A stretch of DNA of 64,000 bases, from NCBI RefSeq assembly GCF_027359395.1, contig NZ_CP114778.1, positions 1,488,001-1,552,000 of the forward strand. The letters are read 5' to 3'. Positions 42,595-48,994 of this stretch are shown here, one piece after another. The notes beneath the pieces are model-generated. The model was not told the origin of the DNA. It saw nothing but the letters and a program-made list of their open reading frames with translations, and ran no database searches. The DNA is from Prochlorococcus marinus str. MIT 1013 (GTDB taxonomy: Bacteria > Cyanobacteriota > Cyanobacteriia > PCC-6307 > Cyanobiaceae). The position numbers were made by a program, and so were the translations under genes. How positions within the stretch are numbered: position 1 is the first letter of the stretch; each line of letters begins with the position of its first letter.

Positions 42595-42621
42595 ATTAAT
42601 GCCGATTACACAACATAACTC
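42595..42621 (+). repeat. att core, copy B
   Basis: ATTAATGCCGATTACACAAC then ATAACTC, encoding INADYTT-stop. The codons just before it read GLGYYIH, so slight argJ-like similarity (YVR/YIH) continues upstream. It is the right end of element 1 and the left end of element 2. Confidence 0.85.
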
Positions 42622-42665
42622 GGAAATATAGTCATATCAATCTGTTTGAAATTCTATTCTTCTTG

Positions 42666-42682
42666 GGCACGCTTTAGGCACG
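42666..42682 (+). repeat. GGCACG arm pair, 71 bp right of core B
   Basis: GGCACGCTTTAGGCACG, 11-bp pitch, in direct orientation to the pair before core C (GGCACGCTTTTGGCACG at 48885). Confidence 0.75.
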
Positions 42683-42801
42683 ATGCATTGGAACCTATTT
42701 GTAATTTTTGATTGTTTATTTGTTACTTCAATCAGACTATGTAAGTAATCTTCTTGTTTTGAATCATAATAAGTTATTGGTTCAGTTACTCAAGAACGTC
42801 C

Positions 42802-44385
42802 TTGGCAGTCAAAGGTAATAAAAAGAAAGAGACATCTGCCAAAGATTTCAAAGCAGTTCTTTGGGCGAGTGCAGATAAACTTCGTTCCCAGATGGATGCT
42901 GCTGAGTATAAACATCTTGTTCTGGGGTTGATTTTTCTCAAATACATTTCTGACACTTTTATTGAGCAGCAAAATAATGTTTTGAAGATGGTGAGTGATC
43001 CAGACTCGGATTACTACCTTGGAGAGAATTCATCAGATCATCAAGAGGCATTAGAGGATCGTGATTACTACACCCAAGAGAATGTGTTTTGGGTTCCTGT
43101 TGAAGCACGTTGGGAATCTCTTAGAAATCAAGCAAAGCAAGCAAACATTGGACAACTCATTGATAAGGCACTTGTTGTGATAGAGAACGAGAACTCAACT
43201 CTAAGAGGCAAGTTAGATAAAAGATTTGGTGCTGCTCAATTAGAACCAGGAAGAATGGGTGAACTAGTTGATCTCATTTCAACTATTGGTTTTGGTGAAG
43301 GTGGTAATTCAGCAGATGTCTTGGGTGAAGTTTATGAATATTTCTTAGGTCAATTTGCAAGCAAAGAAGGTAAAAAGGGCGGTCAATTTTATACACCTGC
43401 TCATGTGGTCAAAACATTGGTTGCAGTTTTATCACCACATAAAGGTCGTGTTTATGACCCCTGTTGCGGTTCAGGTGGAATGTTTGTTCAGAGTGAAAGG
43501 TTTGTGGAATCACATGGGGGAAGAAGAGATGATATTTCTATTTATGGGCAAGAAAGCAATCCAACTACATGGCGTTTAGCAGCAATGAACTTAGCGATTC
43601 GTGGTTTTGCTGCAGATCTCGGTCCAGAACCAAGGGATACATTTGCAAAAGATCATCATTCAGATCTCAAATTCGATTACATCCTTGCTAACCCACCCTT
43701 CAATATTTCTGATTGGGGTGGTGAAAAATATGAGAGTAATCCTCGTTGGGTTTTTGGAATACCACCTGTAGGGAATGCCAATTTTGCATGGTTACAGCAC
43801 ATACTTTGGAAACTTCGACCAGGTGGACAAGCAGGAGTCGTTCTTGCGAATGGTTCACTAAGTTCTAACACCAATGGTGAAGGAAAGATTCGTGAAGAGA
43901 TGGTTAGAAAAGATGTTGTTGAAGTAATAGTTTCTTTACCCGGAAATTTATTCCTCAATACTCCAGTTCCTGCTTGCTTATGGTTTTTTACTCAAGATAA
44001 AACTCAAAGAGGTAGAGATAGAAGAGGTGAAACTTTGTTTATAGATGCTTGTCAAATGGGCAAAATGGTCAACAGAAAAGAACGAGTTCTTACTGCTGAA
44101 GATATCTCGAAGATTGCTGAGACTGTTCATTCTTGGCGTAATGAAAATGAATATGATGATGTTGCAGGTTTTTGCCATAACTCAAAGTTTGAGGAGATTG
44201 AAAAGAATAATTTTGTGCTGACTCCTGGACGTTATGTAGGAGCAGTCGAGGAAGAAAAAGACAGTGAACTTTTTGACGACAAGATGAAAAGACTTACTTC
44301 TTTACTCAAAGAACAACAAGAAAAAGGAATGAAATTAGATCAGCAGATTGCTGAGAATTTGGAGAGGATTGGATATGGTTTTTGA
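42802..44385 (+). CDS. hsdM: Type I restriction-modification methyltransferase subunit HsdM
   Basis: 527 residues from a TTG start. The N-terminal helical domain (KAVLWASADKLRSQMDAAEY) is followed by the N6-adenine methyltransferase core with SAM motif I (YDPCCGSGGMFVQSE) and the catalytic NPPF in ANPPFNISDWGG (about residue 296). With HsdS it methylates adenine at the recognition site. The stop overlaps the hsdS start, so translation is coupled. Codon use and GC are somewhat higher than in the neighbouring glycan region. Confidence 0.95.
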   Translation: MAVKGNKKKETSAKDFKAVLWASADKLRSQMDAAEYKHLVLGLIFLKYISDTFIEQQNNVLKMVSDPDSDYYLGENSSDHQEALEDRDYYTQENVFWVPVEARWESLRNQAKQANIGQLIDKALVVIENENSTLRGKLDKRFGAAQLEPGRMGELVDLISTIGFGEGGNSADVLGEVYEYFLGQFASKEGKKGGQFYTPAHVVKTLVAVLSPHKGRVYDPCCGSGGMFVQSERFVESHGGRRDDISIYGQESNPTTWRLAAMNLAIRGFAADLGPEPRDTFAKDHHSDLKFDYILANPPFNISDWGGEKYESNPRWVFGIPPVGNANFAWLQHILWKLRPGGQAGVVLANGSLSSNTNGEGKIREEMVRKDVVEVIVSLPGNLFLNTPVPACLWFFTQDKTQRGRDRRGETLFIDACQMGKMVNRKERVLTAEDISKIAETVHSWRNENEYDDVAGFCHNSKFEEIEKNNFVLTPGRYVGAVEEEKDSELFDDKMKRLTSLLKEQQEKGMKLDQQIAENLERIGYGF

Positions 44386-48600: not shown

Positions 48601-48768
48601 AGAGATGCCACTATTGATTGGCAATATAAAGAGAATGTTCAAGCAAAACTCAGACTCAAAATAAAGACTCTGCTAAAGCGTTATAAGTATCCTCCTGATC
48701 AACAAGCAATTGCAGTTGACTTAGTACTACAACAAGCGGAGACGTTAGGAGAAGAACTTACTAATTGA
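45667..48768 (+). CDS. hsdR: Type I restriction endonuclease subunit HsdR
   Basis: 1033 residues. The N-terminal nuclease domain has [20 protein letters not shown] (PD-ExK, about residues 138-160). A superfamily 2 translocase follows with Walker A in [16 protein letters not shown] (about 300), DEAH in [12 protein letters not shown] (about 407), FLAFTGTPI (motif III), and [20 protein letters not shown] to ARVNRVF (motifs V-VI). The C-terminal helical domain binds the methylase complex. All key motifs are intact, so the enzyme should be active against unmodified DNA, such as incoming phage or plasmid. Confidence 0.95.
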   Translation: [1033 protein letters not shown]

Positions 48769-48833
48769 TATTTCAAACGTCTAATATTTCTTTCTTCGTT
48801 ATTAGTTTTTAGTTGTTTATAGTAGTTCTCTTT

Positions 48834-48901
48834 GGCACGGTTTAGTGGAAGATGCTATCGCCCGGACTTGGATTTGAAGAGTTAGGCACGCTTTTGGCAC
48901 G
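48834..48901 (+). repeat. GGCACG arm sites left of core C
   Basis: A single GGCACG at 48834 (its partner at +11 is degraded) and an intact pair at 48885 and 48896 with 11-bp pitch. They lie 134 and 83 bp before core C, matching the two-pair layout before core B. Confidence 0.72.
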
Positions 48902-48967
48902 CATAGCATCCGCAGTATAAAGTCAGTTATTGCAATCGTTTTTAGAGAATATTAATCGCGGGTTGAG

Positions 48968-48994
48968 ATCAATGCCGATTATACAACGTAGCTC
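48968..48994 (+). repeat. att core, copy C
   Basis: ATCAATGCCGATTATACAAC then GTAGCTC, again encoding INADYTT-stop. It is the right end of element 2. Confidence 0.85.

Follow-up and report, generated by a model that had tools for sequence, protein, structure and literature searches.

A type I restriction-modification operon as an integrase-less cassette in an argJ-associated tandem array of Prochlorococcus

Introduction

Integron gene cassettes form arrays of small, mostly single-gene units that lack an integrase and are mobilised in trans, in a system characterised by attC hairpins and IntI. Among the ssrA-specific genomic islands of Dehalococcoides, 15 are devoid of an integration module and were suggested to be possible cis-mobilizable elements (PMC3146451). 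For Methylopumilus, one report describes an additive flexible genomic island as an array marked by the repeated last 20 bp of tRNA-Lys (PMC10872708). The same report gives a second-hand description of the tycheposons of Prochlorococcus, elements of 4-200 kb that are located at tRNA genes and carry a recombinase.

The present analysis concerns a 64,000-nt stretch of DNA (hereafter the window; G000:C1:1488001-1552000) from the 2.05 Mb, single-contig genome of Prochlorococcus marinus str. MIT 1013, in which an hsdM-hsdS-hsdR operon lies within an array of units following the 3' end of argJ. As with integron cassettes, these are arrays of small units mostly without an integrase; instead of attC hairpins and IntI, however, the argJ units have argJ-tail cores and arm pairs, and several integrase lineages correspond to one core. 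The closest published case is that of the Dehalococcoides ssrA islands (PMC3146451), which are likewise tandem, bounded by copies of a gene 3' end, in many instances integrase-less, and variable in cargo, but which use an ssrA (tmRNA) site and a CcrB-like serine recombinase, whereas the argJ units have a protein-gene site, tyrosine recombinases and unit-specific paired arms. The Methylopumilus island shares the array of recurring gene-end copies, yet its site is a tRNA gene and, in the part of the report available, no arm code is described (PMC10872708). As for tycheposons, to judge from the same second-hand summary, the host group, the tyrosine recombinase and the nutrient-acquisition cargo are common features, while the argJ units differ in their site, in their size (mostly 0.8-7 kb) and in being mostly recombinase-less; the hsd unit itself is at argJ rather than at a tRNA gene and has no tyrosine recombinase of its own. 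We provisionally class the argJ units as cis-mobilizable elements that accrete in tandem, with a site and an arm code that represent a new variant; argJ is not described as an attachment site in cyanobacteria in the literature searched, and as most subscription papers lay outside that search, the novelty is provisional.

Results

The last 24 nt of argJ (ATT AAT GCC GAT TAT ACT ACG TAG) recur downstream as two copies in direct orientation, starting at positions 42595 and 48968. These copies delimit a segment of ~6.4 kb, the hsd unit, which is filled by hsdM-hsdS-hsdR (42802-48768), its only open reading frames, and which is preceded by another element, unit 1 (32281-42594). The features of the locus, in window coordinates, are as follows.

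31042..32304, + strand: argJ (open reading frame; argJ matches in 90 of 99 relatives)
32281-32304, + strand: core A, the last 24 nt of argJ, presumed chromosomal attachment site (core repeats)
32353..32369, + strand: left arms of unit 1, two GGTAAC with an 11-nt period, at +48 from the core
40997..42157, - strand: tyrosine recombinase of unit 1, right-end class (PF00589 and PF13102)
42462..42538, + strand: right arms of unit 1, GGTAAC at 42462, 42473, 42522 and 42533
42595..42618, + strand: core B, copy of the argJ tail that bounds the hsd unit on the left
42666..42682, + strand: left arm pair of the hsd unit, GGCACG-CTTTA-GGCACG (copies at 42666 and 42677; +47 and +58 from core B)
42802..44385, + strand: hsdM, type I DNA methyltransferase (PF02384, PF12161; PADLOC MTase_I)
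44348..45667, + strand: hsdS, specificity subunit (PF01420; PADLOC Specificity_I, residues 10-437)
45667..48768, + strand: hsdR, restriction subunit (PF04313, PF18766, PF11867; PADLOC REase_I, full length; motifs)
48834..48901, + strand: right arms of the hsd unit, three GGCACG (copies at 48834, 48885 and 48896; -137, -86 and -75 from core C)
48968..48991, + strand: core C, copy of the argJ tail that bounds the hsd unit on the right, with GGTAAC arms and the cupin gene coming next
49222..49497, + strand: cupin gene, which forms a conserved anchor for the array on the chromosomal side (PF05899)

According to both Pfam and PADLOC, HsdM (527 aa; motifs DPCCGSGG and NPPF), HsdS (439 aa) and HsdR (1033 aa; motifs PD-x-ExK, GAGKS, DEAH and TGTP) are full length, so that a complete type I restriction-modification system, with its catalytic motifs, is contained in one operon. 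No integrase-like sequence or other recombinase trace could be detected between cores B and C, either by tblastn with argJ-site integrases or by a genus-wide PF00589 search. The original prediction, that an intact hsd operon without a recombinase occupies the space between these cores and is flanked at both ends by GGCACG arms, was thus confirmed, with two arms inside the left end and three inside the right end, the pairs being set at an 11-nt period. Judged from the sequence, a core with repeated predicted arm sites on either side would conform to the att layout of a lambda-type tyrosine recombinase. As the unit is bounded by copies of a single attachment site (cores A, B and C), lies beside similar elements of the kind arrayed in relatives, and has neither an integrase nor a transfer gene of its own, its status as a bounded, integrase-less passenger cassette is well supported. 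The sole tRNA call, an ARAGORN tRNA-Ser(tga) at 43609-43697 on the minus strand, falls within hsdM and is probably a false positive.

The hsd unit had rightly been described as stacked behind another element, namely unit 1, but such stacking, then thought unusual, turned out to be the rule at the argJ locus in relatives, most of which have a tandem array of core-bounded units directly after the argJ 3' end. The core was present in 37 of the 41 genus genomes (control, 0 matches), and at least two core copies were also found in many genomes from other genera of the family. In G057, where the argJ tail differs (AATAGCGAATATACTACATAG), the downstream cores show the identical difference, indicating that the core repeats follow the argJ gene. 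The final core ahead of the conserved cupin gene is homologous among four genomes (that of the window, G026, G005 and G030), each of which has different content between argJ and this core, as expected from repeated insertion at argJ. Array cargo includes cyanase, a HupE/UreJ-like protein, type I and type II restriction systems, and DUF4214-like surface proteins. One G016 unit (L039, 1917-4542) has a C5 cytosine methyltransferase and an EcoO109I-like endonuclease between argJ cores, is integrase-less and bears ATAAAACA arms. In G031:C27 (L137), a 1711-bp unit occurs twice, with 100% identity, on either side of a 1575-bp unit, which reflects either a recent array duplication or an assembly artefact.

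The recombinase frame of unit 1 is open to ~42467, with a homologous N-terminal domain upstream of the listed TTG start. Within the frame (40997-42467), the part that covers this conserved domain is open but without ATG, GTG or TTG, as is also the case in the G023:C42 copy, and an unusual start codon is possible for this integrase. Two copies of the integrase 3' end (39762-39861 and 41009-41108) flank a SIMPL-domain gene (39982-40773); 3' ends of argJ-family integrases recur as short remnants in many loci, including L102, L103, L104 and L106, and may represent a second-level attachment site or a decay pattern. Unit 1 also encodes a TPR-CHAT protein (34819-38493) that contains arrayed 102-bp repeats. 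Another core-like site, accompanied by a GGTAAC arm pair, is found in this genome at a great distance from argJ (L149, 9354-9374; G000:C1:1904354).

We then considered the arms across the arrays. A first set comprised 54 units, a few of them contributed by G053 and G057, which represent two further genera; here 44 left ends and 33 right ends had a hexamer exactly repeated at period 11, while other periods gave 0-4 ends and interior tiles 3.4%. A second set, consisting of 31 units from other genera and overlapping the first in the G053 and G057 units, replicated this result (23 left ends and 16 right ends). For units with both pairs, left and right motifs agreed in 18 of 27 cases in the first set (shuffled mean, 3.2; maximum, 10 in 20,000 shuffles) and in 9 of 12 in the second (shuffled mean, 1.6; maximum, 8), figures that serve as a guide rather than as exact probabilities since the shuffles give related units full weight. 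As 9 of the 27 two-pair units are mismatched, composite and decayed units exist. Motifs located at about +47/-76 include GGTAAC, GCTACC, GCTAAC, GTTAGC, GCTCAC, TACCAC, ATAAAACA, TATGACA, GGTCAC and GGCACG (a partial list), and those at about +70/-94 are GTGTGAT or GTGACTAA. The two arm geometries track two integrase classes, one at the right end in antisense (~480-530 aa) and one at the left end in sense (~440-470 aa). Within the left-end class, N-terminal domains are similar (69-70% identity, and 67-68% for the rest) where the arms are alike, and the enzymes of G023 and G030, whose arms are unlike, share 34% in this domain versus 50% elsewhere; the comparison is a descriptive one covering few pairs, with one exception, G106a/G106b, whose arms are unlike and which shows no extra N-terminal divergence (45% in both parts).

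With regard to GGCACG, single hexamers are non-significant (6 in the window versus 4 expected), but the paired form GGCACGNTTTNGGCACG exceeds chance, with 4 occurrences in the 41 genus genomes and none for the reversed-pattern control, so that a chance origin of the repeats was rejected. All 4 matches lie at argJ unit ends, 2 belonging to the hsd unit and 2 to an 862-bp integrase-less unit of G016, which carries cargo other than hsd and whose right end is 88.5% identical to that of the hsd unit over 157 bp. The five arm positions agree within 1 nt among the hsd unit, this G016 unit and an hsd plus integrase element of G023. It had been proposed that GGCACG-armed units with a full integrase be sought at argJ: an armed unit was indeed found, that of G016, which was also the only one returned by a scan of the GTDB 220 species genomes, but no integrase-bearing one was detected in the 41 genus genomes, the GTDB 220 species genomes or IMG/VR. 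No second copy of the exact hsd unit was found. In IMG/VR, neither TACCAC attP junctions nor relatives of the two integrases were detected, and HsdM relatives were distant (identity of at most 65%).

Homologues of hsdR were found in 2 of the 40 other genus genomes, that is 3 of 41 in all, in three differing contexts; the situation that would have implied vertical inheritance, hsd genes at the same place without arms or cores in many strains, was therefore not encountered. In G031 the homologues are located elsewhere, with a different hsdS. In G023 the hsd genes, 84-88% identical in DNA to those of the hsd unit, belong to an argJ element in which a 532-aa tyrosine recombinase sits between hsdR and the right core, a layout that assumes that contigs C6 and C33, unjoined in the assembly, form one element. 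This is the integrase-bearing element nearest to the hsd unit; its arms are GGTCACG-type (+47, +58, -138, -87 and -76), and its right end matches the final 98 bp of the hsd unit at 74%. Homology between the two does not extend beyond hsdM and hsdR, and in G023 hsdM is preceded by 2.2 kb of other DNA. DNA homology of the hsd unit is in fact limited to the hsd genes, G031 adding a short upstream stretch, and its left end is like that of the HupE (GGTCAC) units and unlike that of G023. The ends and cargo of the hsd unit have thus recombined.

Regarding the wider class, 47 of 58 units had no integrase trace by tblastn with five argJ-site integrases as queries, and 14 of the 18 units with matching arms lack an integrase. 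In the genus-wide PF00589 search, genomes such as G002, G011, G016, G029 and G040 gave no match within their arrays. Pfam testing of some units' open reading frames revealed no recombinase among those tested; the remaining frames of some integrase-less units could in principle encode unrecognised recombinases. A 1.72-kb HupE unit is 99% identical across G002, G038 and G005, and a 1.31-kb cyanase (cynS) unit 97-98% identical across G040, G029 and G037. On the right, the sequences flanking these units are unrelated between genomes, being no more alike than random pairs (~51%); on the left, the units are bordered by argJ, at 82-89% identity, or by a different unit. On these alignments, the HupE and cynS units are exchanged between species as exact core-to-core blocks with no integrase inside. 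Some arrays contain composites with mixed ends, and internal stretches are often common to several units. For the integrase-less argJ units as a class, mobilisation in trans is likely.

Discussion

The hsd unit is probably a non-autonomous, cis-mobilizable-type integrative cassette in the argJ 3' tandem array, mobilised by an argJ-family recombinase of another element. Such a tyrosine recombinase, of which the 532-aa integrase of the G023 hsd element is the closest example, would use its N-terminal domain to recognise G(G/T)CACG arms and would pair two cores, thereby excising or integrating the cassette by a crossover at the argJ-tail core. Upon integration, argJ would regain a complete 3' end and older units would shift downstream. 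To judge from its predicted proteins, the hsd cargo would act as a DNA defence, and might perhaps favour retention of the array, with restriction acting in cells from which the array has been lost. As for the source of the recombinase, the integrase of unit 1 is unlikely to be the cognate enzyme, because its arms are GGTAAC. A host recombinase of 386-390 aa lies beside hemH, and an enzyme of such size exists in nearly all genomes; it is a possible driver, although nothing links it to the arms.

The original prediction had offered two readings, movement in trans or loss of the integrase. The bounded, integrase-less cassette belonging to a moving class holds, and the GGCACG integrase then envisaged was missing from our searches. 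If the integrase was lost, the hsd unit would derive from an autonomous G023-like element by deletion of the integrase module separating hsdR from the right arms and would now be stranded, a scenario to which the close hsd genes, the 532-aa integrase and the similar right end of the G023 element lend weight. It is nonetheless rather unlikely: the HupE-like left end and the homology confined to the hsd genes, with other DNA ahead of hsdM in G023, mean that ends and cargo were recombined, which plain integrase loss from a G023-like element fails to explain for the whole unit, and the majority of argJ units are integrase-less, some of them clearly still moving.

Homologous recombination in argJ and adjoining units might instead shuffle the units, leaving cores and arms as relics, and would account for the common internal stretches and the mixed-end composites. 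We nevertheless hold it to be improbable, as the unrelated right flanks of the HupE and cynS units leave no right-side homology past the 21-nt core, and as arm geometry and motif matching are maintained. A vertically inherited chromosomal hsd operon with fortuitous edge repeats has its intactness in its favour and nothing further; with hsdR so sparsely distributed, in three contexts, and with repeats far above chance, we reject this explanation, whose probability is negligible. Mobilisation of the hsd unit by the recombinase of another element remains the reading that we favour.

On a broader scale, and more tentatively, as we consider its chances to fall slightly short of even, there may be a family-wide, integron-like cassette system at the argJ 3' end of marine picocyanobacteria, in which one core serves many integrase-less cassettes and a paired-hexamer address code assigns each to one of several diverging tyrosine recombinases acting in trans, the hsd unit being one of its defence cassettes. 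The main interest lies in the argJ array system more than in the hsd unit itself. The arrays provide, ready-made in nature, a set of tyrosine recombinases that have a core in common and differ in arm code, and the cassettes could readily be followed in any genomic or metagenomic data by means of the argJ-tail core and its arm pairs. Prochlorococcus and related organisms exchange very many genes despite small genomes and few classical mobile elements, and a single-copy housekeeping gene used as a docking site for swappable single-gene cassettes would, if true, provide a concrete mechanism for this exchange, suggesting integron-like gene swapping in the ocean's most abundant phototrophs.
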